Below are positions 3,971 through 62,454 of a stretch of DNA of 64,000 nt, piece by piece. Made by a program: the position numbers and the translations under genes. The notes beneath the pieces were generated by a model. It made no database searches. It was not told where the DNA came from and saw only the letters and a list, made by a program, of their open reading frames with translations. This DNA comes from Sulfuricystis thermophila. GTDB taxonomy: Bacteria; Pseudomonadota; Gammaproteobacteria; Burkholderiales; Rhodocyclaceae. The number at the start of each line of letters is the position of its first letter. Within the stretch, counting starts at the first letter, position 1. Where the stretch lies: contig NZ_AP019373.1 in the NCBI RefSeq assembly GCF_004323595.1, forward strand, positions 1,798,001-1,862,000. Direction: 5' to 3'.

Positions 3971-3971
3971 G

Positions 3972-8800: not shown

Positions 8801-9814
8801 CAGGAACAGAGTCACCAAGCGATCACCCTTGGCGTTCCTGGCGCGGACGGAACCCTGGATCCGTACTGCCGGATGATTCGGGTCGGGTGCCTGGTGGGGG
8901 ATCGCGCCTTCCGCGAGGGGGAGCACCAGCCTTCCACCGCAGGGGACGCGCTGCCAGACTTTGGCTTTGGAACCGTCCTTGCGGACTACCTCGTGCTCGT
9001 CGTTGGGCACGCGCTCGTACCTCCCCCAACGTGCCTCGATTTCGATCCGCTCGACGTCGCCGTCGACACAGAAGGTCATGCCGAAGCTGCTGGGCACCAG
9101 CGATTGATTGCTCGCGGCGTCGATTTCGTCAGAGGCATCCGATTCGGGTTCCACCTGCCCAGTCGCCGTCCCGAACTCGGCACCCGGTTCGTGCTGGCCA
9201 GGTACGATCGGGTCGCTGGGTTCCTCGACTTCTTCCTCCGCCAGCGGCCCCTCCAGACCCTCGATGCCACCTCGAGCCGCTTCGCGCGGAGCCAACTTCC
9301 CGACCAGGTAGCGATCGCGCACGCTCATGTCCACGATGCGCTCGTGCGGGCCGCCGGCAGGGCCGAGCAGGTCGTCCACCACGGCCAGTTGCAGCAGTTC
9401 GCGAACGTAGGCTCGGTCTTCGATCACCGGCACGGTCGCGACGGTGTGACCGAACGCCTTGGACAAAGCCGAGACGAAGGTCTCCCACGAGATACGCCCG
9501 ACGCTGCCAGAGGACGGGGGCGTCAGCGACAGGCTGGCCGCCGGTACCGACGCACCGGCGGCGCACACGCGGTCGAAGAAGATCGTGGTCGTCTCGAGGT
9601 CGGATCGGATGCGCAGCACACGCCCGGCACGCACCACCGCCCCGCTGGCGTCGAGTACCAGCACCCAGTCGTCCTCGGCGACGGCCTGGTACTGGGATCG
9701 GTCACCCTTCAATGTCAGCGTGTAGGGCGCCAGCCTGCGACCGGTGCCGAGGCCGTGGTCGATGGCGATCCAGGCGTTGGGATGGTCGGCCATTCGCTCC
9801 TGATCTCTTGTCAT
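5822..9814 (-). CDS. drmA: DISARM helicase DrmA
   Basis: The 1330-residue SF2 helicase has a Walker A variant FPTGGGKTEAYLG near residue 615, motif II as QDEFHLISG, motif III STATVR, and motifs V-VI in NMLSVGVDVNRLGLM and IQATSRVGRS. An N-terminal region of about 550 residues precedes the motor, as in other DrmA proteins, and a zinc-type CPWCG sits after the Walker A box. DrmA with DrmB forms the core effector of DISARM. The start at 9814 is preferred because its ATG overlaps the upstream TGA as ATGA, matching the other junctions of the operon; ATG at 9793 is an alternative. Confidence 0.94.
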   Translation of the reverse strand: MTRDQERMADHPNAWIAIDHGLGTGRRLAPYTLTLKGDRSQYQAVAEDDWVLVLDASGAVVRAGRVLRIRSDLETTTIFFDRVCAAGASVPAASLSLTPPSSGSVGRISWETFVSALSKAFGHTVATVPVIEDRAYVRELLQLAVVDDLLGPAGGPHERIVDMSVRDRYLVGKLAPREAARGGIEGLEGPLAEEEVEEPSDPIVPGQHEPGAEFGTATGQVEPESDASDEIDAASNQSLVPSSFGMTFCVDGDVERIEIEARWGRYERVPNDEHEVVRKDGSKAKVWQRVPCGGRLVLPLAEGAIPHQAPDPNHPAVRIQGSVRARNAKGDRLVTLFLVNAQEEPDTNRDTAWLFQPELIVRAEPATTGQAIFRRRPVLDADGMDPERESLEMIYRNRVEFAVGHGVAVHAETAEDDPTRAIEVRTTVVPQYEVQVTETPGLDPADRPAMREMVASGLLDMQRLATLDVAELVEALNTLTRDYGAWIAEQRSRIGRDVVGYDMQAAQALDRCEEIRARLQQAIDTLKNDEKALTAFRFANRAMALQRVRSVYALKRRRGDDPDLGELEKSERPSWRPFQLAFLLLSIPPLADPTHPDRVQPVEAYADLLWFPTGGGKTEAYLGVAAFTMAIRRLQGKLGGYDGSRGLAVIMRYTLRLLTLQQFQRATALICAMEKLRRDALVQGDESLGREPFTIGLWVGNKVTPGTTEEAHRAIEDFRNPGKHRAGTPSPLQLTSCPWCGSAIDPGRDVVVDKERGRTIVYCGDPMSRCPFSRGRSSNLPHPGIPVLTVDEEIYHRPPTMMIATVDKFAMMAWRGQVRTLFGRVSQECERHGLLWPGCECNTGHRASKGLPAAAVRSVSPIRPPDLVIQDEFHLISGPLGTMVGLYESAVDELCGWTLDGKTIKPKIVASTATVRKAKEQVNNVFMRRVSVFPPHGLDVEDNYFSVQRPIDRRPGRRYLCVCSPGSSRPAMLIRVYTAFLTAAQALFERFGEAADPYMTMVGYFNSLRELGGMRRLAEDDVQTRSYRVQMSMVERPALAQRSVSHIRELTSRVSSQDIPKYLDALEVEFKAAFDPSVGKYVTRWNEGDPRAIDVVLATNMLSVGVDVNRLGLMAVNGQPKGTAEYIQATSRVGRSFPGLVCTVLTWARPRDLSHYETFEHYHATFYKHVEAQSVTPFSPRAMDRGLTGALLSLMRLEYADFSPNEGAAVLDRPDKPEVLKAIDVLVGRAWNVSENRVIEALAERELKERADEWAKQASVPGRTLAYEKRGERAATMVPLIKSPGIHAWDNWTVPMSMREVEPGVRLIMNTGRLSDGHGWRPRPVSSDED

Positions 9815-10497
9815 AATGCACAAGCCTCATAGGGCACGACCATGTGCATCAGAGCGCTTTCGCTCTTCGTGAGGGTCGCGGCAAAGGTCACAGAGTGCAC
9901 TGACAGGGTACTAACCAAGTCGTGCTTCTCCGTCTGGTAGAAGTTGCGAAGGATGAAATCGATGAACCAGCGCGGAGAGAGAGGGGCGGATACCGGGATC
10001 CGGCATCCCTTGACGTCCCCCAAAGTCAAGTGGCAGAGCGGGTGGACGAGGTCTTGGGCCGCTTCGACGTCGTAATCGAACCGAACTGGGAAAGGGACGA
10101 TGCGTCGCGAGACGATTTCGATGAACAGCTCGTCACGCATGTATGCATCGGGGTCGTCTTGAAACGAACGAAGACTTGGAGACGGATAGAACGCCAAGCG
10201 ATGTTTCACCAGCGAGTCCTTCTTGAACAGGTACAGCAGCTGAAGCAGTCCGCCGTCGATGAGCTTGACGCTGTATGAGCGCTTCTCACCGAGCTCGCGA
10301 TGAAGGTCCTGGTAGTCGATTTCCCCAATCGCGATGGAGACGTGTTCCGCACCGTCGAAAGAGACCTCCCAGGTCTCGTCGGATAGCCGACGCAATACCG
10401 GGAAGTTCTGATCGTCGGCGACACCTCGCTCGATCAGGGACGAGAGTAACCGTGAAAGATCGTCCCTCGTGCGTTGAGCAGTCTGTGGTGCAGTCAC
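9811..10497 (-). CDS. DUF2290-like protein, embedded in the DISARM operon
   Basis: The 228-residue protein resembles DUF2290: LAFYPSPSLRSFQDDPDAYM and RDELFIEIVSRRIVPFPVRF in the middle, then the conserved HPLCHLTLGDVKGCRIPVS and SPRWFIDFILRNFY. No catalytic motif, membrane segment or signal peptide is visible, and its biochemical role is unknown to me. It is coupled on both sides: its start overlaps the helicase stop (10494-10497), and its stop overlaps the drmA start (9811-9814). That placement suggests it works as a partner of the preceding helicase. The family assignment is from memory of its conserved motifs and should be checked. Confidence 0.7.
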   Translation of the reverse strand: MTAPQTAQRTRDDLSRLLSSLIERGVADDQNFPVLRRLSDETWEVSFDGAEHVSIAIGEIDYQDLHRELGEKRSYSVKLIDGGLLQLLYLFKKDSLVKHRLAFYPSPSLRSFQDDPDAYMRDELFIEIVSRRIVPFPVRFDYDVEAAQDLVHPLCHLTLGDVKGCRIPVSAPLSPRWFIDFILRNFYQTEKHDLVSTLSVHSVTFAATLTKSESALMHMVVPYEACAL

Positions 10498-12671
10498 TTA
10501 CGCCCCCCCAGCAACCTCAAGAGCTCTGCTTTCTTTTCCGCGTCGAGCTTTTCCAGAGAACTTGCGACATCGTCGAGGTCGAGCTCGCCAGAGACGATTC
10601 CGTCGATGGCCTGTTCGAATCCCTTGATCTTCCGCTCCAGACGAGCTTTGTCCGCAGGTGAGAGGTCGCGGTGTACGACACGAAGTTTCGACAGGATCTC
10701 GTCGGTCGGGTACGTGAAGTCGAGCCTGAAGTCGTGGCGCTTCAACGAGACGAACTCGTCGAGCAACTTCTCCATGCCGCGACCATGGCCGACTACTCGA
10801 ACCCATGCCTTGCTGCGGGTGATCGCGGTGAACAGCCGATTCCTCAGACTGGCGAGCCCCATGCCCGTGGTGTCGCAGTCCTGGGCGTTGATGATGTACA
10901 CCATGCCGGCTTCGTTACCCTTGGCGCGGAAGATGCCGGTGAAAGTCACGGATGGCGTCTCCGTCTTGAAGAACACGTCCGCGTCGGTGTCCACACCCGC
11001 AAGATGATTCTGAATGCCCAGATCGAAGAGTGCTTTGCGAATGGGGCCCAATCGCTCGCGTGCCGAGATGGGATCGGGATGGATGACGATGATGTCGTCG
11101 TGCCTGAGCTCGTCCTCGGTGAGATTCCTGGAAATTTGCTCGACGAGCCAGGCGTTCTGCTCGGCCTCACTTTCGAACTTCTGGAAATGAACGAGATCGT
11201 CGCTTCCGGAGTGCTCCTCCAGGAATCGAGGACTCGTCTCGTCCGTTCGTTCGAGGACGACACGGGAGCCCTTGCGTAGTTCGCCTTCTCGAACCCTGTA
11301 ACCGATCTCCTCCCACAGGGCCGGCTGATCGAACATCTGCACCAGCCCCGTCTCGGTATTCTTGGTGGGAGCGCGATAGATCCCGAACCCGAGCGAGTGT
11401 GCGGTGACCAGCACGGGACGAGAATTGCGATAGCACTTCTGCAAGATCACATCACGCCGCGAGTCGTTTCCGAGCGTGACGTGAGGCCTCCCGTGCTCAT
11501 CCGCCCCGAAAATCTCTTCGGGCGGCGGAAGCGACGCTCCCGACAGGTTCTGGAGCTCATCGTAGGCGTAGACCAGCCGCTTCGGCTCGCGAAGCATGGA
11601 GTAGCAAAGGCGCAGGAAACTCGGTGCGAAGTCCTGTGCCTCATCGACCAGGATGACGTCGTAGAGGGGTTGCGGCAGTCGCGCTGCGCTCAATGCAGTA
11701 CTGCAGGCGCCATCGAATGCCTTGTCGTTCCCGCCGAAGCGAAGACTGGCGGATCGAAAATCGTGGAAGTCTTGCCCTGACGCCCTGCAGAATTCGTAAT
11801 AGATCCCGTCTCGCTCGTCGCCGCCTGGCGCCCCCCAAGCGTTGACCACTCGAATCCTGGACCAGTCGGGCTCCTCGCCGGACTGCTCGATGCAGAAGTT
11901 GGTGATCAACCGCTTGAATTGCCCTTTCAGCGATCGCGTGTGGAAGGTGACGGCGATTCGCCAATCCGGATGCTGGGTGTGCAGATAGGCGGCCTTGAGC
12001 GCCAGTACGATCGTCTTTCCCGAGCCGGCCAAGCCCCGGATGCGCTGAACGCCGTCGACGGTTTCGATGACCGCCCGGTTTTGGCGATGGTCGAGCGTCG
12101 CGATCGAGTCCTCGAGGCGCTTCAGCTTCGCTCCTCTGGAGTCGGGGCGAGCGACCTCCCGCTTCGAGCGGCTCTTTCGGATGGACGATAGGCTCTCGAT
12201 GGCGGAGAGCGTCTGGCGATACAGCTCTTCGCTCGCCCCTTCCCACGACAGCCTGGCGATGACCTCTGCTAGGCCTTCGGCGCTGGCGATGGGATACCCT
12301 TCTCGAGCAATGCGCCCCACGTCCTCGATGGCTGGGGCGAAGGTGACGACGTGCAAGGCAGGAAGTAGGCGGCGCCCCTTGACGAGCTCTTTGTGCAGCT
12401 TGAGCTTGGCTTCGATCTTGTTCGCGAGGTCATCCTGCCGAGATGCGTATTCACCGACATCGCTGCCCTCGACGAGGTCGAAGAGGATGATGCCTTTCTC
12501 TCGAGTAACGAGTGTTGCGTCGAGAAAGTATTTTCCTTCCGGCGTCGCGATGAGTGGGTAACCGAAGAAGCAATCTCCCGTCAGTCTCTCGATGGACGAT
12601 AGCGCCTTTTCCAGTTCCTCCGACGCTACGGGTTTTCCATTGGTACCTCGAGTGAAATGGAGCCGATTCAT
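10494..12671 (-). CDS. SF1 UvrD-like helicase with degenerate NERD-like N-terminal domain
   Basis: The 725-residue protein has a Walker A GLAGSGKTIV near residue 216, Walker B VDEAQD near 343 and C-terminal SF1 motifs (MVYIINAQDCD, RNRLFTAITRSKAWVRV). The first 130 residues look like a NERD-type nuclease fold (GKYFLDATLVTREKGIILFD), but the expected E-x-K of the active site reads DLVEG, so nuclease activity is doubtful. It sits between drmMI and the DUF2290 gene with four-base overlaps at both ends. It is not a standard DISARM component. Translocation or unwinding of DNA is inferred from the motor alone. Confidence 0.85.
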   Translation of the reverse strand: MNRLHFTRGTNGKPVASEELEKALSSIERLTGDCFFGYPLIATPEGKYFLDATLVTREKGIILFDLVEGSDVGEYASRQDDLANKIEAKLKLHKELVKGRRLLPALHVVTFAPAIEDVGRIAREGYPIASAEGLAEVIARLSWEGASEELYRQTLSAIESLSSIRKSRSKREVARPDSRGAKLKRLEDSIATLDHRQNRAVIETVDGVQRIRGLAGSGKTIVLALKAAYLHTQHPDWRIAVTFHTRSLKGQFKRLITNFCIEQSGEEPDWSRIRVVNAWGAPGGDERDGIYYEFCRASGQDFHDFRSASLRFGGNDKAFDGACSTALSAARLPQPLYDVILVDEAQDFAPSFLRLCYSMLREPKRLVYAYDELQNLSGASLPPPEEIFGADEHGRPHVTLGNDSRRDVILQKCYRNSRPVLVTAHSLGFGIYRAPTKNTETGLVQMFDQPALWEEIGYRVREGELRKGSRVVLERTDETSPRFLEEHSGSDDLVHFQKFESEAEQNAWLVEQISRNLTEDELRHDDIIVIHPDPISARERLGPIRKALFDLGIQNHLAGVDTDADVFFKTETPSVTFTGIFRAKGNEAGMVYIINAQDCDTTGMGLASLRNRLFTAITRSKAWVRVVGHGRGMEKLLDEFVSLKRHDFRLDFTYPTDEILSKLRVVHRDLSPADKARLERKIKGFEQAIDGIVSGELDLDDVASSLEKLDAEKKAELLRLLGGRK

Positions 12672-15600
12672 GAACGTTCTCCGAAATTGTCATTCGCTTG
12701 GACAACCCGATACCGTGCTCCGCGCCGTTCGCCCTGACGTTCGACTTGGCCGCCTTCGAGCAGTCCGGCGATCGCGGCGTTCCATTGGCCGTCCGTGATG
12801 CCGGTGGCGGCGAGGATGTCGGATTTTGGATGCCAACCGGGATGGGTCTTCAGGTATTCGAGGATGGTATGGGCGGGCCCAGCTCGGTAGCCGGCGCCCG
12901 GTTCGGCGGCCTCGAGGTGGCGACCTTCGTTGGCAAGGGGGATGTCGAATCCGAACGAGGCTTGCCGTTCGGGGGTGGTTTCGGTGCGTTGCGTAGGTGC
13001 CCTGCGGGTGGCAGTGCTCGTAGCTCTGCTGCCGTGCAGACCTCGGGCGACTTCCTCCTCGTACCGCTGACGATTCAACTCGGACAGCCGCCGCAGCACT
13101 TCCAGCCGTGCGCGCTCACTGATGGTGAAGCGGACGCGATCGTTCTCTGGCAGGTACGGCACTTCATGGAAGCCGTGTTCGAGGTCGAGGTCGTCCCAGC
13201 CGTAGGCGCGGGCGACGGCGAGGTCGATCTCACGATGCATCGCGCGCATGGAGTCGATCCGGGTACTACTGTCCAATGGATCATGGAAACGGTTGTAGAG
13301 TTGGGTGAGCCCAATCCACTCCTCTTGCATCAGAGACTCGCGATGGGCGTGATAGCGCTCGCCGAGACTTTCGATGTCGTTTTCTCCAAGATCAGGCATC
13401 GGCCACGTTTCCAATGCCTCTGTTGTTGAATACTTCAAAGTAGAAAGCCCCATCATTCCGCAAGTCCAGTACGCCCAAGCAGCATGTATAGATGACTGCA
13501 AACACACGAACTCGCGCCAATCATCAAAGAAATAAAGCTTAGTAGCCTTATTCATGATGATATTGGTTCGTACGCGCCTGAAAGAAAGATGCTTTGACGT
13601 AATGGCAGAGGCCAATATGGTCGTTCTTCGCTCCAATTCTGCAACCAACTGGGGGCGCAGATCCCAAAACTTCCAGAAGCAGTCCTGGTGAATCTGACCC
13701 GTCAGCGACTCGCGATAGGGTTTCACCAATTCTTCTACACGGCGGAATGCAGGTCCGTACTGGCGTGCCCGATCCTCTGGCCAATCGCGAAAGTAGATGG
13801 CCCATCGATAAGGCTCCAACCTCGGCATGGTGTTGAGGTCCTGGCCATTGAACAACGGGAAGATCACCTCGGCACATTTCGGATCCTCGGCGAGTATCGC
13901 ATCGCGCTCTTCCGCCGTGAGCTCGAATCCACGCCCCATGATGTCCTGGCCTTGCGAGAACTTTCCTTTCAGAACCTTGAGCTTTTTCGGTCGCGGGATC
14001 TCGAAGTCACCTTCGAGCGCGCCATTGATGGTCAAGACTTCTCGCTCATTCAGGACCTTCCGTCCTCTCCATGCCGAACGTGTGACCCACACGATGGAGA
14101 CGACCACCGCGGCATTACCTGGCCATGGCATCCGCGATAGCGCCCGATAGATGGTGCCGCCCACGCCGATGATCTGATCCAAGCAGACCACGCGAGAACC
14201 GGTCTCGGCGATGGACTTCGTCGCCAAAAGTCCGAAACAGCCTTTCGAACCCAACAGCGCGAACGCCCTCAAGTAGAAGTAGACGCAAAGATCGGGCGAC
14301 CCAACGACACCATTGCGGACGAACTTCAAATACTCCTGGTAGGCCAGTCCAAAGCGACGCCCGATTAGCCGACCTCCACCGAACGGTGGATTCCCCACCA
14401 TGGCATCGAATCCACCCCTTCCATCGGCAAACACCTCCGGAAACTCCAGCGGCCAATGGAACGGGCGACGTGGCGGCTTGCCCGCCGGGCGATCGGTCGC
14501 GAGTGCGGCGCCGGCTCGCCGATGCATCGCGGCCAGCGTCTCTTGGTCACCCTCGATGGCTCGCCCGGCCTGGACGGCAAGCGAGGCCAGGGCGCTCTCC
14601 AACGCCGCGCCGGTGCCACCCGCGGTGAACACCTCCCCGATGAACGCATCGGCGATGAGCCCGGGCACTTCGAGCCTCTGGCGTGCGTCGGCATCCAGAT
14701 GCGCCATGACCTCCACGTCGTGGATATCGCGGATGGGCGTTTCGCGCAGCCGTTGCCGCAACTCGATGGCCTTGCGCACGGCGGTTTCGATGGTCTGACC
14801 GAACAGTCGCATCTGCCCCTGGCTCGAAGGGTTCATCGCAAGCTGGGTCAGTTGATCCAGTCGATGGATGCCGAGCAGGCTATCGCCGCACCTGAGGTTG
14901 TGGTCGAGGAAGCCGAAGGGCCGCCCCTTGGCGAGCGTCACCAACCATAGAGAAAGCTTGGCCAGCTCCACCGCCAGCGGGTTCAGATCCACGCCGTAGA
15001 GGCAGCGCTCGGCCACCAGCCGACGGGCGACGATGGTGCGCTCTTCATCGTTGCGCGGCAGCGGCTCGACTTCCGAGCCGGACTCCGCCACCCGCCCATC
15101 GATGCCCACCGTGTGGCCCTGGACCTCGGCCCGCGCCCAAGCCTCCACCAGGCGGTCGGCGAGCCAGCGGCAGGCCTGCACGAGGAAGGCGCCCGAACCC
15201 ATTGCCGGGTCGCAGACTTTGAGATCCAGGAGTTCCGCGGGGGACTTGAGTACCCATTCGCTGCGCGGCTTGCCATCCGCCGGGCCGACGTAGGCGACGG
15301 GCGTGAGCGTCTCGGCGACGATGGCCTCGGTGAGGGACTTCGGCGTGTAGTGCGTACCGGTCTCGCGCCGGTCCGAACCAGTGGTGACCACATAGGCCCC
15401 GGCCGGATAGACCAACGGATAGCCCCAAGGATCCATCCTCAGCAAGTGAGCGTAAGGGCGGATCCGTTCGGCGAGGGCGGAATCGCCGTGGCATGCGGTG
15501 AGCACTTTACCCGTGAGCGCCTCGTCTACCGGGCGGGCGAGGTCGTTGCGCACACGGCTCTCCGAGCTGCCCGACCGCTCGCGCAGCAGTGCGACCAGGC

Positions 15601-16990
15601 GCTCGGTGCCGTCGAGCCGGGCGGATTCGAGCTCGGCCAACGTGACCCAGGGCGACTTGGCGCTCTTGGTGGCGTCGAGCTCCAGCGTGACATCGTGGGT
15701 GCGTTTGACGGTGCGCTCGAGCAGACCCTCGTAAACGTAGCCGATCTGCTCCACGTCCAGTGCGCGGTAGGAGAGCGTGCGGCCCTCGAACGTCTGAATG
15801 GCCTCGAGCAGCAGCAGCACGGTGCGGTTGTCGATGGGCAGCGGCTTCGCGGCATCGGTGCGCCAATGTGACCCCTTGGCTCGGCCCTCGAGGAAGGGGA
15901 AACGATCCGGATCGAACAGGGACCCACCGAGTGCGGGCAACCGCAGGTTCTCGTGCTCGATGCCGCCATAGACGGCACGGAACACGGCGAGCAGGCGCGA
16001 CCAAGCGTCCCAGCGGCGTTCGAGGATCTCCTCCGGCTCGGCACGCAGCTGCATGCGCAGGGTGGAGACGGCGTAGTGGGCCTCGTAGCGCGGATCACCC
16101 AGGAGCAGCAGGCCGCGTTCCTCCGCGCAGAGAAGGAACACGAGCCGCATCATCACCGTCAGCGCCGCCTCATAGAGTTCGGCCTCCTTCACGTCGCGCA
16201 GCAGTGTGCGATCGCGGTCCTGATCGGCCTTGTCGAGCGCCTGGACCAACACCTCGACCGCGCGCCGCACCTGCTCGCCCAGGGCGTCGGTGACCTCGTC
16301 CTGGTACTTCAGCGAGCGATCGAGGAGTGCGGGAAGCCGTTCCGACTCGTCCACGAAGAAGCGCCGTAACCCCAGCAAGTGGACGAAGGCCTGGAGGGTG
16401 ACGGGCTCCTGAGCCCAGAGGCGCGCGTACCAACTGGCGAAGGTGGTGACCGCGCCCACCGGGGCATCCACCAGCATCCAGCGCTCGCCGTTGGTCACGA
16501 GCCCCAGGCGGCAGCCGGTGGCGCGGCAGAGCGCCACCATGCGCTCCGCGGGCGTACTGGCCCAGCCGTCGAGCCGTTGGGTGGCTTCGAGATCGACCTC
16601 CGGTCCATGGGTCTGGATCAGCAGCAGCGGCTTGCCATCGTCGCCCACGACGGCGAAGTCCGGCGACAGGCGCACGCCGTGTTCGGGGAGATCGACGACC
16701 AGGTTCGCGGCACACCAGTCACGGCGCTTCAGCACGTCGCCCCGGCCGTCCTCGTCCAGCTCCAACCCACGTGCGAGGACCTCGTCGATCCAGGCGGCGT
16801 GCAGGTCGTCGAAGCGTGGATCGCCCGTCTCCAGCGCCTCCTGCCACTCGTCGTAGGCCTGCCGTAGCCGTTTGCGCTTGGCGACGTCGAGCGCCTCCAG
16901 CCCTTGCGGGAAGGCTTCCTTCAGGACCGGGACGGCGAGGAATGGCCCGGAGATCTCGATGAGCGAGAGCCAGTCGTGGTGCATGGTCAT
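12668..16990 (-). CDS. drmMI: DISARM adenine-specific DNA methyltransferase DrmMI
   Basis: The 1440-residue protein is an Eco57I/PglX-like N6-adenine methyltransferase. SAM-binding motif I reads DPAMGSGAFLVQACR (about residue 593), and the catalytic NPPF lies in VGNPPFGGGR (about 866). The N-terminal 200 residues carry a nuclease-like strand pattern (SPDFAVVGDDGKPLLLIQTH) lacking the usual acidic residue of the active site. The C-terminus adds a winged-helix segment (HPGWHPKSDILAATGITDGQ). In class 1 DISARM this enzyme marks host DNA as self. Its length fits DrmMI; a BREX PglX was considered, but no other BREX genes are present. Both ends overlap neighbouring genes as ATGA. Confidence 0.92.
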   Translation of the reverse strand: MTMHHDWLSLIEISGPFLAVPVLKEAFPQGLEALDVAKRKRLRQAYDEWQEALETGDPRFDDLHAAWIDEVLARGLELDEDGRGDVLKRRDWCAANLVVDLPEHGVRLSPDFAVVGDDGKPLLLIQTHGPEVDLEATQRLDGWASTPAERMVALCRATGCRLGLVTNGERWMLVDAPVGAVTTFASWYARLWAQEPVTLQAFVHLLGLRRFFVDESERLPALLDRSLKYQDEVTDALGEQVRRAVEVLVQALDKADQDRDRTLLRDVKEAELYEAALTVMMRLVFLLCAEERGLLLLGDPRYEAHYAVSTLRMQLRAEPEEILERRWDAWSRLLAVFRAVYGGIEHENLRLPALGGSLFDPDRFPFLEGRAKGSHWRTDAAKPLPIDNRTVLLLLEAIQTFEGRTLSYRALDVEQIGYVYEGLLERTVKRTHDVTLELDATKSAKSPWVTLAELESARLDGTERLVALLRERSGSSESRVRNDLARPVDEALTGKVLTACHGDSALAERIRPYAHLLRMDPWGYPLVYPAGAYVVTTGSDRRETGTHYTPKSLTEAIVAETLTPVAYVGPADGKPRSEWVLKSPAELLDLKVCDPAMGSGAFLVQACRWLADRLVEAWARAEVQGHTVGIDGRVAESGSEVEPLPRNDEERTIVARRLVAERCLYGVDLNPLAVELAKLSLWLVTLAKGRPFGFLDHNLRCGDSLLGIHRLDQLTQLAMNPSSQGQMRLFGQTIETAVRKAIELRQRLRETPIRDIHDVEVMAHLDADARQRLEVPGLIADAFIGEVFTAGGTGAALESALASLAVQAGRAIEGDQETLAAMHRRAGAALATDRPAGKPPRRPFHWPLEFPEVFADGRGGFDAMVGNPPFGGGRLIGRRFGLAYQEYLKFVRNGVVGSPDLCVYFYLRAFALLGSKGCFGLLATKSIAETGSRVVCLDQIIGVGGTIYRALSRMPWPGNAAVVVSIVWVTRSAWRGRKVLNEREVLTINGALEGDFEIPRPKKLKVLKGKFSQGQDIMGRGFELTAEERDAILAEDPKCAEVIFPLFNGQDLNTMPRLEPYRWAIYFRDWPEDRARQYGPAFRRVEELVKPYRESLTGQIHQDCFWKFWDLRPQLVAELERRTTILASAITSKHLSFRRVRTNIIMNKATKLYFFDDWREFVCLQSSIHAAWAYWTCGMMGLSTLKYSTTEALETWPMPDLGENDIESLGERYHAHRESLMQEEWIGLTQLYNRFHDPLDSSTRIDSMRAMHREIDLAVARAYGWDDLDLEHGFHEVPYLPENDRVRFTISERARLEVLRRLSELNRQRYEEEVARGLHGSRATSTATRRAPTQRTETTPERQASFGFDIPLANEGRHLEAAEPGAGYRAGPAHTILEYLKTHPGWHPKSDILAATGITDGQWNAAIAGLLEGGQVERQGERRGARYRVVQANDNFGERS

Positions 16991-19008
16991 GCGGCACCTC
17001 CGGCGGACTCGGGAAGATCCGGAACCCCTGCCGCCAGAAGGAGCCGATGGACTCGATCGAATCTGGCAGGGTCGAGCGTGTCGTCCCCCTTTTTTCCTGG
17101 TGGTACCCAGATCACCATACCCGCTCGAGCCCGTGTGAGGAGTACCCGGTAGCGGTTGCGTATGTATGCCTTCTCGACGTCATCTCGGACCCGTTGCCAG
17201 GAGCTACCGCGAAATTTCCGGTAATCCCATGCACCCTCTTCTGAGAGAGTGAAGTCACCACCCCAACACAAACCAACCCAATCGAGCTCGAGCCCTTGGC
17301 ATTCGAATTCGGATGCAGCCACCTCGAGTGCGTGGCTGGATCGACAGTCATCGGAAGGCATCAAGAACCATTTCTCGAAAGAGAAGCCGAGCATGAACGC
17401 GCTGGATCTCTCGAGGCCATAGGCGCGAAGCCGTTGATCTTCGGAGGTTGCAAGAAGACCGGGCCGCTGATCTCCTCCGGGGAGGCAATGATCGTGCAAC
17501 CACTTGCGCGCTTCGTCCAGGCTGCGCGTGACGTAGAGAGGAAACTCTCGTGTGTCAGGAATCGAGACCCTGGCGCCTTCAAGATCTAACCTCAATACGG
17601 CGTTCACCCACTCGGTGAAGGTCTGAGCGCGATGGCTACGAACACCGACGCTCAGGTGCGCAAGTGGCTCTTCTCGAACCCTCACCCGATCTGGGATACC
17701 ACCATCGAACAAGCGATGCCCAGAGACGCTCTCCCCGCCCGAGATGACCTCGGGGGAGGCAACGACTGTCCAATGAGGACGCTCGGCCACGGCTCGTCCC
17801 CACTCCTCCAAGCCACCTTCTCCGAGGAATATCTCTTGCCCCCCTCCGACGAGAGCGATGACCACCGCCCAGTCGTGGAGGCGGTCCATGACGTCAAGAA
17901 GTTCGGCAGCTTCGGAAGTCGAAACTCCTTGCTTTCGGAGCATTTGGTGCTCGTTCCAAGCCCGCTGAGCTTCGTCGAACACGACGACGTGTTCGTGCGG
18001 TCGTGCACTTGGGTTCTCACGGTGGTATCGAAGGAACTGGTGAACGTTCTGTATGAACGTCGAAACTTCGTGCGCGCAATCCTGCCTTCTACGACCGGCT
18101 CGCTGCCTGTTCAGTACGAGTGCCTCGCGAACGATCTTTACCAGCGGGCCGTTGCCCGAGAGAAAGATGCCGGACCGTTCTCTACTATCACGGAGTGATG
18201 GGTCATGAACAACGTTCAGCCCGGTCAAAGTCTTGCCTGCACCCGGTATGCCAGTGATGAAACAAACATAACGCGTACGGCTGGCACGAGCATCACCAAT
18301 CACCCGGGCCAGCATATCCGTCGTAGCGTTCAGGTTAGTTGCATAGCTGTGGCTTATTTCTCGGACCTCATGGCCGGCATACAAGCGTTCCGCGGCTTCG
18401 ATGATCGAAAGCGTTGGCCGGTACGCCGAGTGAATCCAACGATCCGCGTCTATTAGGGAAGGCGCTGATTGGCTCGCGAACCGCTGGGCCGTGATCAGCA
18501 CATCCGGCAGGTTTTCCTCATTTGCAAATTGAACATCCGCAATGCTTTGGCGTATTTCCGGAGGTCCGTTTACAGTGTTGGGCGCCTTCGTGACACAGAG
18601 AACGGGGACGATCGGGTGACCTCGGCTTTCCGCATGAAAGTCGCGCAAATTCAAACAGTACTCTTCGGCCTGCCAACGAGAAGCGTGGTCATAAACATTC
18701 GCTCCGACCTTGAACTCGATCACGTGGATCACACCGTCGGCCAATAGAACCGCATCTGGACGCTTCTGCCGTCTTGGCAGCTCGTATTCGAGAATCAAAC
18801 TCCACGAGGAGCTCTTTGGATTAAGATCGATTAGCCGTCTCGCGGCCAGCCGCAGTATCTCGATCTGCCGCTTCCAGCTGTCGATCTGCGTGGTCCGGGT
18901 TGCCTGCACCCCAGTGGATGCCACTGCGGCCGTGAGAGCCCCCAACACTGACGCTTCGTCGACGCACAGGAATCCGTCCAATGTGTAGCTGACGCCTCGG
19001 CTCATCAT
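16987..19008 (-). CDS. DUF2075 protein: PD-(D/E)XK-like nuclease fused to P-loop ATPase
   Basis: The 673-residue protein joins an N-terminal PD-(D/E)XK-like domain (RPDAVLLADGVIHVIEFKVG, E-F-K near residue 98, with an upstream E in LEYELPRRQKRPD) to a DUF2075 motor. The motor has Walker A TGIPGAGKT near 256, Walker B VVFDEAQRAWN and a C-terminal SF1-like motif (NRYRVLLTRARAGMVIWVP). Unlike the neighbouring SF1 helicase its nuclease residues look intact. DUF2075 proteins recur in defence islands. Here the gene lies between drmD and drmMI, coupled by overlaps at both ends, so it should be made together with DISARM. The role is inferred. Confidence 0.87.
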   Translation of the reverse strand: MMSRGVSYTLDGFLCVDEASVLGALTAAVASTGVQATRTTQIDSWKRQIEILRLAARRLIDLNPKSSSWSLILEYELPRRQKRPDAVLLADGVIHVIEFKVGANVYDHASRWQAEEYCLNLRDFHAESRGHPIVPVLCVTKAPNTVNGPPEIRQSIADVQFANEENLPDVLITAQRFASQSAPSLIDADRWIHSAYRPTLSIIEAAERLYAGHEVREISHSYATNLNATTDMLARVIGDARASRTRYVCFITGIPGAGKTLTGLNVVHDPSLRDSRERSGIFLSGNGPLVKIVREALVLNRQRAGRRRQDCAHEVSTFIQNVHQFLRYHRENPSARPHEHVVVFDEAQRAWNEHQMLRKQGVSTSEAAELLDVMDRLHDWAVVIALVGGGQEIFLGEGGLEEWGRAVAERPHWTVVASPEVISGGESVSGHRLFDGGIPDRVRVREEPLAHLSVGVRSHRAQTFTEWVNAVLRLDLEGARVSIPDTREFPLYVTRSLDEARKWLHDHCLPGGDQRPGLLATSEDQRLRAYGLERSSAFMLGFSFEKWFLMPSDDCRSSHALEVAASEFECQGLELDWVGLCWGGDFTLSEEGAWDYRKFRGSSWQRVRDDVEKAYIRNRYRVLLTRARAGMVIWVPPGKKGDDTLDPARFDRVHRLLLAAGVPDLPESAGGAA

Positions 19009-22000
19009 CCAACCTCGCCGGGAACGATGAACACCACGGCAACCGGGAAGGTGCGATCGATGAGCTTGGCGTAGCGGGATTCGATGCCTTGGACCTCCAT
19101 CTCACGCTCCTCCGGGATGCGAGCGAGCCGGGCCTGCAGCGCGGCGATGTCACGCCGCAGCTGCATGCGTTCGTCCTCGGTGAAGAGCGATAGCTGTTCG
19201 GGTTGCTCACTTTTCTCCAGTTCAGACCGAATCGCTTGCTCCAGATCGTCGAGCACGGTGCGGATGTCTTCGATCTCCTTACGTTTGCGGCTCTCCAGTG
19301 TGTTGGTCAGATAGCGCAGACGCTCCTTGGAGCGGGCTTCGACGGCTCCAAGGATGGCTTCCTGGTGTCGTTCGAAACGGACGCGAAGTGCATCGAAGAG
19401 GTCGGGCGGCGCGGTGAATGGTTTGCCGTCGTCCAGCCACCGTTGGACGTGGGTGATCCTTTCTTCGCGACGGAAGGACTGATCCCGCAGGTAGCCACCG
19501 GAGACGGTCAGCTCCTCGTGCAACCGGTGATGGTTGCAGCCGGTGATCACGAGCCGCGAGACGATCACCACTGCCGGACCGTCGAGCAGCGCATCGGGCA
19601 CGCTGCGGACGCTGACGCGGTGTAGCTTCTTCACGTCGTCGCGGGCCCAGATCTCGGCACGCAACAGGCGCAGGCACATCTGCACCAGGCGATGGTTCAG
19701 GTGGACGAGCACGACGTCGTCGCGCCCGCGGGCGACGGCGTGGTCGAAGGTGATGGGGCGGATCTTCTGCGTGTGGGGATGGCGCAGTCCTTCCAGGCAG
19801 CGCGCCCAGGATCCAGAGAGCGCAGGCATGCGGAAGACGGTGCCGGGCGGAGCCCCTGGTAGTTCGACGGGCACCAGAGGGGGGCGACCGGCCAGGGCGA
19901 GGCCGGTCTTCACCGCCATCAGGATGTGCTGGGGATCGAGGTGGAAGTCCTGCTGGGTGGCCAGCAGCCGTTCGTGCAGCTTGGCGACGCGTTCCTTCAA
20001 CTCGCGTTCGGCTCGGACGAAGTTCCGGGCCCGGGCGATCCGTGCCTCGGCCATGCGGGTGTCCAGGTCCTTCAGCGAGCCTTCGATGAGGCCGGACATC
20101 TGCGGCGCGATGACCGGATTGACGCTGCCCATGTCGGCGCGCATCGAGTCCAGCTTGCGCAGGGCGCGCAGGATGTCCTCGGCATGGCCGCCGACCGAGG
20201 TGCCCTGAGAGTCACCCCCATCGACCGGGTGCCAGATCAGCACCTCCCTCTCGCGCTGGCCATGGCGGTCGATGCGCCCGTTGCGCTGCTCCATCACGTT
20301 GGGGTTGTAGGGGATCTCCAGGTGGATGAGCATGTTGCAGTGGTTCTGCAAGTCGATGCCCTCGGAGGCCGCGTCAGTGGCGAGCAGGATGCGGACGGGG
20401 GAGTCCTTGGGGGAGGCCTGGAACGCTGCCTTGATGGGTTCGCGCTCCTCCTGGGAGAGACCGCCGTGCAGCAGCGCGAGGCGCTCGCCGCCGAAGCCGT
20501 GGCTGGCGAGGATCCGATGCATCCACTCGTGCGTCGTGCGGTACTCGGTGAACAGGATCACCCGGCGGTCGTTCCATTCGCCGTTCGGCCCTTTGAGGTG
20601 CTTTTCGAGCCAGTCGAGGATGGCGCGGGCCTTGGAATCGACCTGGTTCCTGGCGCGCTGGGCCCACGATCTCAGTTCGTCGAGCATCGCTCGCTGCTCC
20701 GCCGTCAGCGGCGGCGTGCGGCGCGTGGCCTCCTCGATGGCCTCGGCCTGGGCATTCTCGACCTCCCGATCGTCGGCGTAGTCCTCCTCGACCCTCAGGA
20801 TGGCCTTGTGCAGGATGCGCTCGGCCATGGCGTCCCGCTTCTCGGGCCGCGCCTCGGAGAGGGAGTTGGCGTGCTTCTCGAGGGTGGCGGCGAACGCGGC
20901 CGGAGACGAGAGCAAGCGTTTCTTGAGCAGCCGGTTGACGAAGGTCGTGCCGAAGCCGTTGCCGGCCCGTTCGGCGTGCTTCTCGCGGCTGGCACAGTAG
21001 TCGCTCAGCTTGCGGTGGATCTCACGCTCTTCCGGTGTGTAGTGGATCGGCAGCGCCTGCAGGTTGCGCCGCGCGTAGAGGGGGTTGCCCTGCGCATCGA
21101 CGAGATCACTCTTGAGGCGACGGATCATCACCTGGCTCAGGCGCTTCTCGTCGGGGAGGATGTTGCGTGCGAAACGCTGGTCGTCCAGCAACTCCAGAAG
21201 CGAGGTGAACGACTCGGTGTACCCGTTGTGGGGTGTGGCGGTCAGGAACAGGCGGTGCTGGAAGTGCGGGGCGATGGTCCGGATGAAGCGCGTGCGCTGG
21301 CTCTCCAGCGCGTAGTGCGCGCCCGCGGCGGGCGCGACGTTGTGCGCCTCGTCCACGACCAGCAGATCGAACTTGCGCGGATGGCCGACATGGGGCGGGA
21401 GCACGTCGCGCATGGCACGCAGCCCCTCGCCGCCCTTGGCCCAATCCATCGACGTGATGAGACGCGGATGCGACGTCCACGGGTTGGCGTGGATGCCGCG
21501 CTCGCGCCGCAACCGTTTGATGTACTCGGTGTCCACCACCCGGAAGTCGAGGCCGAACTTCTCCAGCATCTCGACGCGCCACTTCTCCTGCAGCGAGGCG
21601 GGGCAGACGATGAGGACGGTGCGGGCGCGGTGCCGCAACAGGAGCTCCTGGATGACCAGCCCGGCCTCGATGGTCTTGCCGAGACCGACGTCGTCGGCGA
21701 TGAGCAGGTTGACGCGGGCCATGTCGATGGCTCGCACCAATGGATCGAGCTGGAAGTCCTCGATGCTGACGCCGCTGCGGAACGGTGCCTGGAGGAACCC
21801 GCGGTCGGCGTTGGTGGCTGCGCCCCAGCGCACGGCGTCGAGGAAGGCGTCGAGCGTGGTCGCGTCGTCCTGTCCGGTGATGGATGGCAGGCCCGCCCGC
21901 TCGATGACTTTGGCTCCTGGCTCGATCTCCCAGACGACCTCCAGTTCCTCGCCGAGGCCATCCTCGTCGATCGACGAGAGTGTCACGCAGTTCTGTGGTG

Positions 22001-22130
22001 CCCCCTCCAAATTCGACGAAACGACGTCGGCGACGACCCACTGCCGCCGGCGCACCCCGACCAGCTGGCCGGGCTCTGGGGTCGTCGAATGGACGAAGCG
22101 AGCGTGAGTGGATCGTTGCGTGACGCTCAT
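19005..22130 (-). CDS. drmD: DISARM SNF2-family helicase DrmD
   Basis: The 1041-residue SF2/SNF2 protein has Walker A DDVGLGKTIEAG near residue 150, motif II VVDEAHN, TATPHN as motif III, and C-terminal motifs LLATDAASEGIDLQ and QRNGRIDRHGQ. DrmD is the signature of class 1 DISARM. A frame open to 22241 exists, but the start at 22130 is chosen because its ATG overlaps the vsr stop (22127-22130) and gives the MSVTQRSTHARF N-terminus. Coiled-coil-rich residues from about 930 on (RSKERLRYLTNTLESRKRKE) form the tail. Length is normal for the family. Confidence 0.93.
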   Translation of the reverse strand: MSVTQRSTHARFVHSTTPEPGQLVGVRRRQWVVADVVSSNLEGAPQNCVTLSSIDEDGLGEELEVVWEIEPGAKVIERAGLPSITGQDDATTLDAFLDAVRWGAATNADRGFLQAPFRSGVSIEDFQLDPLVRAIDMARVNLLIADDVGLGKTIEAGLVIQELLLRHRARTVLIVCPASLQEKWRVEMLEKFGLDFRVVDTEYIKRLRRERGIHANPWTSHPRLITSMDWAKGGEGLRAMRDVLPPHVGHPRKFDLLVVDEAHNVAPAAGAHYALESQRTRFIRTIAPHFQHRLFLTATPHNGYTESFTSLLELLDDQRFARNILPDEKRLSQVMIRRLKSDLVDAQGNPLYARRNLQALPIHYTPEEREIHRKLSDYCASREKHAERAGNGFGTTFVNRLLKKRLLSSPAAFAATLEKHANSLSEARPEKRDAMAERILHKAILRVEEDYADDREVENAQAEAIEEATRRTPPLTAEQRAMLDELRSWAQRARNQVDSKARAILDWLEKHLKGPNGEWNDRRVILFTEYRTTHEWMHRILASHGFGGERLALLHGGLSQEEREPIKAAFQASPKDSPVRILLATDAASEGIDLQNHCNMLIHLEIPYNPNVMEQRNGRIDRHGQREREVLIWHPVDGGDSQGTSVGGHAEDILRALRKLDSMRADMGSVNPVIAPQMSGLIEGSLKDLDTRMAEARIARARNFVRAERELKERVAKLHERLLATQQDFHLDPQHILMAVKTGLALAGRPPLVPVELPGAPPGTVFRMPALSGSWARCLEGLRHPHTQKIRPITFDHAVARGRDDVVLVHLNHRLVQMCLRLLRAEIWARDDVKKLHRVSVRSVPDALLDGPAVVIVSRLVITGCNHHRLHEELTVSGGYLRDQSFRREERITHVQRWLDDGKPFTAPPDLFDALRVRFERHQEAILGAVEARSKERLRYLTNTLESRKRKEIEDIRTVLDDLEQAIRSELEKSEQPEQLSLFTEDERMQLRRDIAALQARLARIPEEREMEVQGIESRYAKLIDRTFPVAVVFIVPGEVG

Positions 22131-22555
22131 GAGGCCCTTCCCTTCCGTTCCATCACCCGGTCGTAGATGAGACGGGCGGCCTCGACCGGATCTTCGTGAG
22201 ACCAGACGCGAATCACTTCCCAACCGAGTTCTCGCAAGCACCGGGTGGTATCGGCATCACGGGTGCGATTGGCTTCGATCTTCGCTCGCCAGAATCCGGC
22301 GTTCTCCTTTGGCCAGGTGGCATGGAGTGGACACCCGTGCCAGAAACACCCATCGACGAAAACCGCCACGCGCGCACCGATGAACACGATGTCGGCGACC
22401 CGTCGCGGCTTTCTGGACAGTGGCACTTGCAAGCGGTAGCGAAGGCCCAGGGCATGCAGGGCCCGCCGCAGTTCGATCTCGACGTCCGTTCCTCGCTGGC
22501 GCACGCGCGCCATGCGGCGGCTGGCTTCAGGCGACGAGGGGCTCACGCTTGGCAT
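22127..22555 (-). CDS. vsr: Very short patch repair endonuclease Vsr
   Basis: The 142-residue protein has the Vsr fold: a conserved start (ASRRMARVRQRGTDVEIELR), the catalytic aspartate in VADIVFIG, the histidine and zinc-site block VFVDGCFWHGCPLH, then RDADTTRCLRELGWEVIRVW. Vsr nicks 5' of the T in T:G mismatches that arise when 5-methylcytosine deaminates. The gene overlaps the cytosine methyltransferase gene by 29 bases, mirroring dcm-vsr pairs, so its job is probably to limit mutations at DrmMII sites. It is not an invariable DISARM gene. Confidence 0.93.
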   Translation of the reverse strand: MPSVSPSSPEASRRMARVRQRGTDVEIELRRALHALGLRYRLQVPLSRKPRRVADIVFIGARVAVFVDGCFWHGCPLHATWPKENAGFWRAKIEANRTRDADTTRCLRELGWEVIRVWSHEDPVEAARLIYDRVMERKGRAS

Positions 22556-23642
22556 TTCGCTCCCTCTCGGCGACGGACCGGGCGGTCTCGTCGACCATCT
22601 TCGTCTCGGGCACGACGGCGAGATGCCGCAGGATGCTCCGGCCGATGATCCTTCCCAAAGTGACCGGCACCGCGTTGCCGATCATGCGTCCCAAGCTTTT
22701 GAAGTGGATCGGACTACCCGCCGGGACGAAGGAATAGTCTTCCGGGAAACCTTGCAGGATCGCTCCCTCACGCAGCGATATCGCCCGATCCTGCTCGGGG
22801 TGTCCGAAGCGACCGTTGCCGAAACCGTAGAACTGGGTGGTGAGGGTCGGGGCGGGTTCGTCCCAAACCATGCGGCCATAGACACCCGGATATGTCCGGC
22901 CGCTATCACGGCGGTGGCATTCCGCGATCAAACGTTTGGGCCAATCCCTCCAAGTCCCGCCGGGACGGGATGCGCGGATGCGTTGGAGGTTGAGCTTGGA
23001 AAGCTTGGACGCCGTGTGTAGCGGATCGGAAGGCAGAGTGCTGCCCGCCGGTATCGGCGGAAGCTTTCCGATCGCGTCGCGCACGGTTTGGGGTCGCTCG
23101 TGGGTGCGCTCTATCAACTCGATCGGCCCGATGCGCGAGGCGAGCAGCACCATCCTGCGTCGGCGTTGTGGCAAACCGTAGTCGGAGCAATCGACGACAC
23201 CGTGCCAGAGTCCCAGATAGCCGCACTTCCTCAGGGTGGTGACGAAGTCGTGATACACCGCGTGTTTCTCCACCGTCGGCACGTTCTCCATGGTGACGAG
23301 ATCGGGGCGAACGGCTTCGACCAGATGTGCGAACTCGTACAGCAGTGCCCATCGTGGACTTCCCACCGTGTCGTAGCGTTGGGCATAGGTCGAGAAGGGC
23401 TGACAAGGGGCGCATCCGGCGAGGATACGGACGTCCGCGTCACCGAAGAGATCCTTCAGAAACGCTGGTTTCGTCCTCGAAACGTCTCCCTCGATGAACC
23501 GCGCGCCATTGTTCGTTTCGAACGGGTAGCGGCAAGCCGGATCGACGTCGATGCCGGCCACGACCGGCACGCCTTCCGAGATCAAGCCGTGCGTGAGCCC
23601 TCCCGCCCCACAGAACAAATCGATGCAGGCCAACTTGGTCAT
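22527..23642 (-). CDS. drmMII: DNA (cytosine-5) methyltransferase DrmMII-like
   Basis: The 371-residue enzyme has all main C5-methyltransferase motifs: ACIDLFCGAGGLTHGL (I), the catalytic cysteine in GCAPCQPFS near residue 79 (IV), MENVP near 118 (VI), DYGLPQRRRRMVLLA (VIII), and GNAVPVTLGRIIG (X). It would methylate cytosines of a short sequence set by the region around residues 180-290. In class 2 DISARM an enzyme of this type (DrmMII) protects self DNA. Here it heads the enzyme genes of an otherwise class 1 operon and is paired with vsr. The recognition sequence cannot be read from the protein. Confidence 0.9.
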   Translation of the reverse strand: MTKLACIDLFCGAGGLTHGLISEGVPVVAGIDVDPACRYPFETNNGARFIEGDVSRTKPAFLKDLFGDADVRILAGCAPCQPFSTYAQRYDTVGSPRWALLYEFAHLVEAVRPDLVTMENVPTVEKHAVYHDFVTTLRKCGYLGLWHGVVDCSDYGLPQRRRRMVLLASRIGPIELIERTHERPQTVRDAIGKLPPIPAGSTLPSDPLHTASKLSKLNLQRIRASRPGGTWRDWPKRLIAECHRRDSGRTYPGVYGRMVWDEPAPTLTTQFYGFGNGRFGHPEQDRAISLREGAILQGFPEDYSFVPAGSPIHFKSLGRMIGNAVPVTLGRIIGRSILRHLAVVPETKMVDETARSVAERERNAKREPLVA

Positions 23643-23700: not shown

Positions 23701-23901
23701 TCAATGGCCTGCCGCCGAATCGGATTCCTCCGACGCCTTGCCGGAGCGCACCCACTCGTCGACCTCGTCGGCCTTGAACTTCCAAAACCTCCCCACCTTG
23801 TGGGCCGGCATGTCCTTTTTCGCGATCCACGCGTAGACGGTGTCCCTGCTCACGCCGAGGTATTCGGCTATTTCCTCGACGGATAACCAACGATCGGCCA
23901 T
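23701..23901 (-). CDS. Helix-turn-helix (excisionase/MerR-like) protein heading the DISARM operon
   Basis: The 66-residue protein is a single HTH_17-type domain: WLSVEEIAEYLGVSRDTVYA, then the wing HKVGRFWKFKADEVDEWVRS. Such domains occur in Xis-type excisionases and in small transcription regulators. The start at 23901 has GGAAAG eight bases upstream; ATG codons further up (23913, 23934) have poorer sites. It is the first gene of the operon, 58 bases before the methyltransferase, so it may regulate the system. Whether it acts as a regulator or as a leftover recombination directionality factor cannot be told from sequence. Confidence 0.8.
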   Translation of the reverse strand: MADRWLSVEEIAEYLGVSRDTVYAWIAKKDMPAHKVGRFWKFKADEVDEWVRSGKASEESDSAAGH

Positions 23902-23932: not shown

Positions 23933-23961
23933 ATATTGTCACAGGATTTGGGCCGGGTAAA
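23933..23961 (-). promoter_or_regulatory. Putative promoter of the DISARM operon
   Basis: On the minus strand TTTACC (23961-23956) and CAATAT (23938-23933) are 17 bases apart, and the predicted start leaves a short leader before the HTH gene at 23901. Both hexamers are imperfect, which fits a weak or activated promoter. Confidence 0.4.
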
Positions 23962-23963
23962 TG

Positions 23964-23999
23964 CGATTCATGCCGGTTCAGGCCGGTTCATGCCGATTC
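23964..23999. repeat. Three to four 10-bp direct repeats upstream of the DISARM promoter
   Basis: The plus strand reads CGATTCATGC, CGGTTCAGGC, CGGTTCATGC, then CGATTC, each unit starting ten bases after the last. The units sit next to the -35 box of the DISARM promoter and overlap the lysozyme stop, so they also mark the left prophage junction. A helical period of ten suggests a protein binding array. Confidence 0.55.
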
Positions 24000-24467
24000 G
24001 TTGGTCGTCGATCGGTCGACCAACAGCTCGATTTCGGCTTCTCGGCGCATCACGAGTCCCGGCAGCACCTTGCCGCCACCGTAGACCCAGCGGCGTAGCT
24101 CCGTTGCGGCGGCAGCCCAATCCCGCTGGTTCACCCGCCGTCGCAGCGTCGACATCTGCAGCCGCCCCGCCCCCAGGTTGAAGGTGAAGTCGACAATGGC
24201 GGCGAGCCGCCCCTCCGGCTCGGTCGCCAGCACCGGGCAGTAGCTCAACGTCGCAGCCAGCGCGATCCTGAGGTCTTCCGCCAGGTAGCGCTCCGCCTCG
24301 GCCTCCGTGATCGGCGGATGCTTCGGATCGCAGAGATGGCCGTAACCAATCGTCCAGTATCCCGCCGGACAGACGTAAGGATGCGCGCGCCCGGGGTCGT
24401 GCTTGGGCACGCGGTGGAAGCCCTCGAAGCGCTTGGCCAGCTCGATGGCTTGTGGAGGAATACGCAT
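23988..24467 (-). CDS. Phage lysozyme (glycoside hydrolase 24-like endolysin)
   Basis: The 159-residue protein carries the T4/P22-type lysozyme signature: catalytic glutamate in AKRFEGFHRV near residue 12, the GYWTIGYGHLCD block, and LAAIVDFTFNLGAGRL further on, ending with the PGLVMRREAEIELL motif. It cuts peptidoglycan at the end of infection. No signal peptide or SAR helix is visible at the start, so release should depend on the holin. The start at 24467 gives the conserved N-terminus; a GTG at 24494 would add nine residues. It is the last gene of the late transcript. Confidence 0.9.
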   Translation of the reverse strand: MRIPPQAIELAKRFEGFHRVPKHDPGRAHPYVCPAGYWTIGYGHLCDPKHPPITEAEAERYLAEDLRIALAATLSYCPVLATEPEGRLAAIVDFTFNLGAGRLQMSTLRRRVNQRDWAAAATELRRWVYGGGKVLPGLVMRREAEIELLVDRSTTNESA

Positions 24468-24494
24468 CTCTGGCTCTGAACTTGTAAGCAACAC

Positions 24495-62354: not shown

Positions 62355-62454
62355 GGCAGGCGTTTCGATGGAAAACGCTCCTCATGCTAGGAACCCATGG
62401 CACTTGGCGTAACGGGTTTGGGCGGGAATGTGCTCGCAAGAGCGGGTTTGGGAG
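62355..62454. other. Right prophage junction region
   Basis: This 100-base gap lies between the last phage gene and the stop of the helicase gene. It should hold the promoter of the cassette and attR or attL. It includes GTTTCGATGGAAAACGCTCC and two GGGTTTGGG runs (62414 and 62445). No clear direct repeat of the left junction (23935-23990) was found by eye. Confidence 0.5.

Follow-up and report, generated by a model that had tools for sequence, protein, structure and literature searches.

A 10-bp-phased direct-repeat array at a DISARM promoter, the probable operator of the operon's own small helix-turn-helix protein

The switching of defence islands is little known, and a few regulators have been described, namely the C proteins, BrxR/CapW, CapR and RptR (PMC12255303). 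Proteins of the excisionase type bind head-to-tail and with high cooperativity to tandem repeats spaced by one turn of DNA, and one of them, Apl, is reported to repress promoters as well (PMC7498355). Similarly, the MerR-like regulator BldC was described as assembling head-to-tail on variable numbers of direct repeats (PMC5859096). The present analysis concerns an array of direct repeats at the promoter of a DISARM defence operon in Sulfuricystis thermophila (contig NZ_AP019373.1, positions 1,798,001 to 1,862,000; this whole stretch of 64,000 nucleotides is called the window, and its own numbering is used below). The array is probably an operator for the 66-amino-acid helix-turn-helix (HTH) protein encoded by the first gene of that operon. 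In open-licence articles of PubMed Central, searched by title or start of the abstract, no earlier description of this operator or of a DISARM HTH regulator was found among the papers listed, nor were such operators mentioned in the passages seen of PMC12458937 and PMC12839542, and a prior mention is possible.

The first-pass annotation of this DNA had reported units repeated every ten bases next to the DISARM promoter, and these are present in exact steps of 10 base pairs (bp), with CGATTC at 23964, CGGTTC at 23974 and 23984, and CGATTC at 23994. When the minus strand is read, in the direction of the operon, they are four among six in-register 10-bp units that run from 24001 down to 23942, namely ACGAATCGGC (unit 1, 24001-23992), ATGAACCGGC (unit 2, 23991-23982), CTGAACCGGC (unit 3, 23981-23972), ATGAATCGCA (unit 4, 23971-23962), TTTACCCGGC (unit 5, 23961-23952) and CCAAATCCTG (unit 6, 23951-23942). 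This six-unit array of 10-bp-phased direct repeats (23942..24001, minus strand) is proposed as an operator on the basis of its sequence, its register and a motif scan of the window. When shifted by 10 bp, it matches itself in 23 of 30 columns, a value unmatched elsewhere in the window and not attained when the 400 bp around it were shuffled 2000 times with dinucleotides preserved. A motif built from 63 loci, with no DISARM-type locus among them, has its top window matches in the array (16.0 and 15.5 bits). As had also been claimed, the array overlaps the end of a phage lysozyme gene (23988..24494, minus strand; assigned with Pfam), the stop codon of which lies inside it.

Relatives of the HTH protein were collected from viral contigs (12 loci, of which 10 were used; the two weak ones left out, L210 and L211, have 40% identity) and from species genomes (best 80 of 148). 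The resulting 90 upstream regions, 150 bp each and from many phyla, were reduced to 72 non-redundant ones. In these, the mean best self-match at a shift of 10 was 19.58 against 14.69 in shuffled sequences (z=20), and the signal returned at shifts of 20 (z=14) and 30 (z=11.2), while 165 control segments from elsewhere in the same loci gave 14.28 at shift 10 and hence no signal. Similarly, a tied four-unit motif reached 16.57 bits at spacing 10, compared with 7.05 +/- 0.16 in 12 shuffled sets and with 7.75 to 11.17 bits at spacings 8, 9 and 11 to 15 (9.08 at 9 and 9.78 at 11). The unit consensus across these promoters is TTAAACCCGA. The array scores at least 15 bits in 51 of the 72, and the upstream region is, in-sample, the best motif site of its locus in 57. 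Judged from these upstream sequences, the 10-bp repeats are a conserved feature of the promoters of this HTH family.

The motif was also scored on out-of-sample loci taken from order, class and phylum searches. The main held-out set comprised 32 loci (6 of them reused from a smaller set), from which 13 that could not be located by pattern and 4 that shared training sequence were removed, leaving 15 loci of 2-3 kilobases (kb) each. Their mean score was 11.99 bits at spacing 10 and between 1.88 and 4.24 bits at spacings 7, 8, 9, 11, 12 and 13. The upstream region was the best site in 9 of the 15, with 0.56 expected, and sites of at least 11 bits were found upstream in 8 and anywhere else in 2. 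The smaller set began with 29 loci, one of which was not located; after removal of two with training-set sequence and one duplicate from the 28 scored, 25 remained, and in the six of the window's HTH clade the upstream region came out best in four (0.24 expected). Finally, the motif from the 63 non-DISARM-type loci gave the upstream region the top rank in all 10 loci outside its training, although some of these are near-duplicates (nine carry DrmMII/Vsr genes and one, L201, has a contig that ends behind the HTH gene).

The family search also caught a sister HTH clade, which reads ILTLKEVAEYLK... where the window clade has RWLSVDEIAEYLG... Eighteen of its upstream regions (among L293-L321) show the 10-bp period as well (z=9.2), but their unit is another one, GAAAATAGGG, and runs for the most part in the opposite direction; the array unit at these 18 loci is of the GAAAATNNGR type. 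Scored with the motif of the window clade, the upstream region was best in just 3 of 19 sister-clade loci (0.71 expected). Because the repeat sequence varies with the protein while the 10-bp spacing persists, the HTH protein is suggested as the ligand of the array, and this covariation of repeat sequence with protein is the best evidence here for that assignment.

The candidate ligand is encoded by gene 1 of the operon (23701..23901, minus strand) and exceeds the cut-offs of three families: Pfam HTH_17 (PF12728; 70 bits, cut-off 27), NCBIfam NF047737 (MAD1; 85.2, cut-off 80) and TIGR01764 (excisionase family; 73.9, cut-off 28.8). Its predicted structure is a winged helix with a predicted local distance difference test score (pLDDT) of 82.5. 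With this model, Foldseek returned the RdfS excisionase first, at E 0.015, and nothing at E 0.001 or below. When ranked by Z, phage DNA-packaging HTH domains come first (7lwr, 7.7), followed by RdfS (7.1), BldC (6amk and 6ama, 7.0), MerR-type domains and, lower down, the Pukovnik Xis (4j2n, 6.4). Matches by sequence profile were 8vd6 (E 2e-6, over 23 residues) and the Pukovnik Xis (E 0.0015). Taken alone, the fold match of the modelled protein is only suggestive.

Taken together with the promoters described above, it is probable that the array is an operator bound by the operon's own HTH protein. Hence the earlier claim that the repeats belong to the control region of the DISARM operon is retained in the form of helically phased sites with the HTH protein as their most likely, predicted ligand, according to the ortholog, held-out and sister-clade comparisons, while the origin by integration that went with it is not supported (see below). 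We infer binding, cooperativity, repression and a role in timing in the following scheme. One HTH monomer would bind each 10-bp unit, all on the same helix face and in the same direction, and neighbouring monomers would clasp head-to-tail into a short filament. In the window, this filament would cover the -35 region and the spacer of the DISARM promoter, leading to shut-off once enough protein is present. The operon would hence fire fully on entering a new cell, with its methylases made early, and would then be held at a set level.

Within this operator reading, repression is somewhat favoured over activation because the promoters of some orthologs come close to the consensus and do not require an activator, and because two of the window units lie on the promoter. 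The promoter with a 17-base spacer that had been claimed can be read as TTTACC-17-CAATAT (23933..23961, minus strand), a weak sigma70-like promoter, but the array is not merely upstream of it, since units 5 and 6 overlap its -35 hexamer and spacer. In locus L200, the upstream region of which is identical to that of Caldimonas manganoxidans (L212), the best-scoring pairing is TTTACC-15-GACAAT. Near-consensus promoters that abut or overlap the array occur in other orthologs, for example TTGACT-17-TATAAA in L207 and TTGAAA-17-TATAAT in L282.

Several observations weigh against the operator reading or against repression in particular. The binding of the array by the HTH protein is a prediction, and the loci were collected via the HTH gene, with HTH-less arrays sought in six methylase loci only. 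In the 72 promoters, weaker periodicity also appears at shifts 5, 9, 11 and 21 (z 4 to 7), and 21 of them score below 15 bits, 16 of these standing before unclassified operons. The window array itself lies in the lower half of the ortholog scores, at 19.5 bits by the full motif and 16.0 by the held-out one, and it stands at a poor promoter. Array direction was called as with the gene in 55 promoters and against it in 17, and such reversed arrays are surprising where a polar filament is to act on a promoter. In addition, a -35-like hexamer sits at phase 0 of the array for 15 of the 44 ortholog promoters compared (binomial 1e-5), but little weight is given to this because the unit (TTAAAC) itself resembles a -35 hexamer, which partly builds in the agreement in phase between promoter and array. 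Finally, among the 16 ortholog promoters that score at least 8, the -35 hexamer starts right at the end of a four-unit array in nine (offset 37-41).

This last arrangement is what would be expected if the same protein on the same operator formed a filament reaching as far as the -35 hexamer and assisting RNA polymerase on a weak promoter. Such activation, which overlaps with the operator reading in all but its sign, would suit the weak promoter of the window, which would need help, and DNA was reported to be distorted by BldC-type filaments (PMC5859096). It is nevertheless held to be rather unlikely, as several orthologs have near-consensus promoters in need of no activator and units 5 and 6 of the window overlap the -35 hexamer and the spacer.

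The systems that stand behind the arrays bear on whether the HTH protein is the ligand at all. They were called by similarity of the downstream genes, DISARM-type loci being judged by matches to DrmMII, DrmD or DrmMI. Among non-redundant loci, an array of at least 15 bits was found in 20 of 20 for MADS, 7 of 7 for DISARM-type, 4 of 6 for BREX, 2 of 3 each for Druantia-like and DUF499, and 2 of 2 for HmaA-like, as well as at the single loci of a type IIG enzyme, an E1-E2 system and a C5 methylase. It was found in 11 of 27 unclassified operons and not at the one type I methylase locus. Because the loci were collected via the HTH gene, these counts show the range of the HTH-plus-array pair and not the frequency of arrays without the HTH gene. 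For the same reason, and since binding is predicted only, it could be argued that the array binds another regulator, with the HTH gene linked to it by descent only. This alternative is improbable in view of three observations: the arrays stand before operons that are not otherwise related (MADS, DISARM, BREX and others); the sister HTH clade keeps the spacing with a different repeat sequence; and an array is absent from all six of the DrmMII-related loci where the pattern search gave no HTH gene, with scores of at most 9.9 bits across 2.6-4.1 kb each, compared with 26.8 bits at a DrmMII-related locus with the HTH gene.

If the HTH protein is indeed the ligand, a recognisable operator common to MADS, DISARM, BREX and other operons would offer one testable switch for many systems, would permit regulons to be predicted from sequence, and would explain why a MAD1-type gene takes first place in these operons. 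More broadly and tentatively, the tiny BldC/Xis-like proteins of a single family, each having a 10-bp-phased operator, would head operons of the MADS, DISARM, BREX, Druantia-like, Hma-like and restriction kinds in different phyla. Their operators would be alike enough for cross-regulation within one cell, and autorepression would produce a timed burst when an island enters a new host, which together would amount to a shared immunity code.

The surroundings of the array raise a further possibility, namely that the repeats are sites for phage excision or integration at a prophage end, with the HTH protein as the excisionase. The protein does belong to the excisionase family and is encoded within a prophage, and the second-best place for the array motif in the window (62412-62451, minus strand; 14.2 and 11.9 bits), possibly a chance match, is located at the recombinase-side end of that prophage. 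However, many bacterial genomes have the same arrays ahead of MADS, BREX and other operons (compared by downstream genes alone), and about 21 kb separate the window array from the nearer prophage end, making this explanation very improbable.

The position of that end is incompatible with the prophage border at 23.9 kb claimed in the first-pass annotation, as the phage-plus-DISARM arrangement is common to Caldimonas manganoxidans and the homology reaches window position 3078. Likewise, the suggestion that integration had replaced or brought in the control region is not supported, as the run of lysozyme, array, HTH, DrmMII, Vsr and DrmD is also found in Caldimonas manganoxidans, at 93% DNA identity. 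On the far side of the operon (the DrmB end and DrmC, with homology continuing beyond them on the same contig) the identity is 96.7% and stops at 3078; the comparison covers both ends of the operon, with about 12.7 kb between L212 and L292 outside it. Other phage contigs also have this HTH gene next after the lysozyme, and at least two of them, L203 and L204, go on with a C5-methylase and Vsr before they diverge. Based on the shared Caldimonas arrangement, the homology up to 3078 and the lysozyme-HTH pair in other phages, the DISARM operon is best read as cargo of a prophage of about 59 kb. An attachment-site (att) core at 23.95 kb, considered from a 7-bp match (GCCCAAA) to the recombinase-side end, was ruled out by the Caldimonas comparison, and the ends of a transposable phage were dropped as candidates when a serine recombinase was found.

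This large serine recombinase (60242..61729, minus strand; assigned with Pfam and 93% identical in genome G132) adjoins a DUF2924 gene (61669-62142). The recombinase-side end of the prophage is proposed at 62408..62431, where homology to G132 starts at about 62426, and the far end at 3059..3078, where an att-like core lies in a terminator-like hairpin. The far-end sequence GCCCGAACCCGTTTCG matches GCCCAAACCCGTTACG of the other end at 14 of 16 positions, but the att-like match at 3059-3074 does not stand alone, since a copy at 581-596 scores equally and an unrelated place at -1691 slightly higher, and the far end hence rests on the break in Caldimonas homology. In the unoccupied-site comparison in relatives that had been suggested, the left host flank maps in all 19 genomes searched within the genus, but on the right, within the first 6 kb beyond the window, only part was strongly matched (in G012), so that no clean empty site was obtained. 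Just outside the far end lies an apparent truncated serine recombinase (2403-2818), and terminator-like units are repeated near 580, 1510 and 3060. Like the prophage end at 3.07 kb, the corresponding place in Caldimonas is in a terminator-like hairpin, as judged by eye. Intrinsic terminators may be what the serine recombinase targets.

Related phages carry other genes at the place of the DISARM operon. AcaML1, a 59-kb phage with 60% identity in the recombinase and 83% in the lysozyme, has Dcm-McrB-McrC behind the lysozyme (49572-54267). Among further relatives of the lysozyme, the tested open reading frame (ORF) behind it was of a defence type by PADLOC in 10 of 10 (type I and III restriction, methylases, PglZ, helicases), a count biased upward because these ten (L104, L105, L106, L124, L134, L135, L140, L146, L149 and L156) were picked from 28 for a large ORF. 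The stretch behind the lysozyme, leftward of window position 24494, looks like a defence-cargo slot in these phages, holding type I/III restriction, methylases, BREX PglZ, helicases, McrBC or DISARM, and the DISARM system would thereby be placed on a mobile prophage with such a slot. A second related lysozyme gene is located about 74 kb away in the same genome (1896105-1896548, L002), with an unrelated flank in which the two-repeat-unit pattern had no match with up to three mismatches allowed.

Slippage can create short tandem repeats, but to regard the window array as a functionless product of chance or slippage is hardly credible when none of 2000 shuffles attains its self-match and the 10-bp phasing is found again in dozens of promoters that otherwise differ in sequence, a conservation that contradicts it.

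The operon that the array precedes is headed by the HTH gene with Drm genes behind it, as had been annotated. Leftward of 23901, all on the minus strand, the gene order is HTH, DrmMII C5-cytosine methylase (22527..23642; PADLOC), Vsr-type endonuclease (22127..22555; PADLOC and Pfam), the SNF2-family helicase DrmD (19005..22241; PADLOC DrmD models score up to 1538 bits, the top model being one labelled DrmA, at 1723 bits), a Schlafen-group-3-type helicase (PDC-S41; 16987..19008), DrmMI adenine methylase (12668..16990; PADLOC, with a type IIG enzyme as the best model), a helicase (10494..12671; PADLOC 'Helicase'), a 228-amino-acid product known from its ORF alone (9811..10497), DrmA (5822..9823), DrmB (3972..5819) and DrmC (3209..4129), the last three by PADLOC. 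DISARM class 1 is defined by DrmD, DrmMI, DrmA, DrmB and DrmC in one operon; all five genes are present here, with DrmMII in addition. In the otherwise near-identical Caldimonas copy, DrmMI follows directly after DrmD without the intervening Schlafen-type helicase gene, which may be an optional member of the operon.

The mode of binding proposed for the HTH protein is already known from BldC and excisionases, and a direct-repeat repressor of a defence island has already been published (RptR, PMC12255303). At the sequence level, the window array shows the direct repeats about one helix turn apart that are typical of the BldC and Xis sites. As is predicted for the HTH protein, BldC of Streptomyces is described as a small MerR-like winged-HTH regulator with no further domains that binds variable numbers of direct repeats (PMC5859096), and it is among the closer solved structures to the HTH model (6amk and 6ama, Z 7.0). 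In contrast, the sites reported for BldC are rich in AT (AATTXXXX(C)) and belong to a developmental regulon, while the gene found here heads a defence operon and its unit is TTAAACCCGA. Recombination directionality factors of the Xis/Apl type (Apl of phage 186, PMC7498355; Pukovnik Xis, 4j2n; RdfS, PMC11963761) have the excisionase-family fold, to which the model of the window protein has a suggestive match, and likewise direct repeats one helix turn apart, and Apl is reported to double as a transcriptional repressor, a likeness to the role proposed for the window protein. These factors are described as working at attachment sites with tyrosine recombinases, whereas here the recombinase is of the serine type and the arrays are found at the promoters of defence operons. 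RptR, too, resembles what is proposed here, being a small repressor that heads a defence island and is reported to bind cooperatively to three tandem direct repeats at its own promoter (PMC12255303). Unlike in the scheme proposed for the window protein, it is described as dimeric, reportedly without close structural relatives, and its repeat as 9 bp around the palindrome TAGCTA, while the window units are 10 bp long and none contains TAGCTA. Finally, the window protein resembles MAD1 of MADS (NF047737, PADLOC mad1), since it passes the cut-off of that family and MADS operons carry the same arrays, but it differs from MAD1 in that it heads a DISARM operon.
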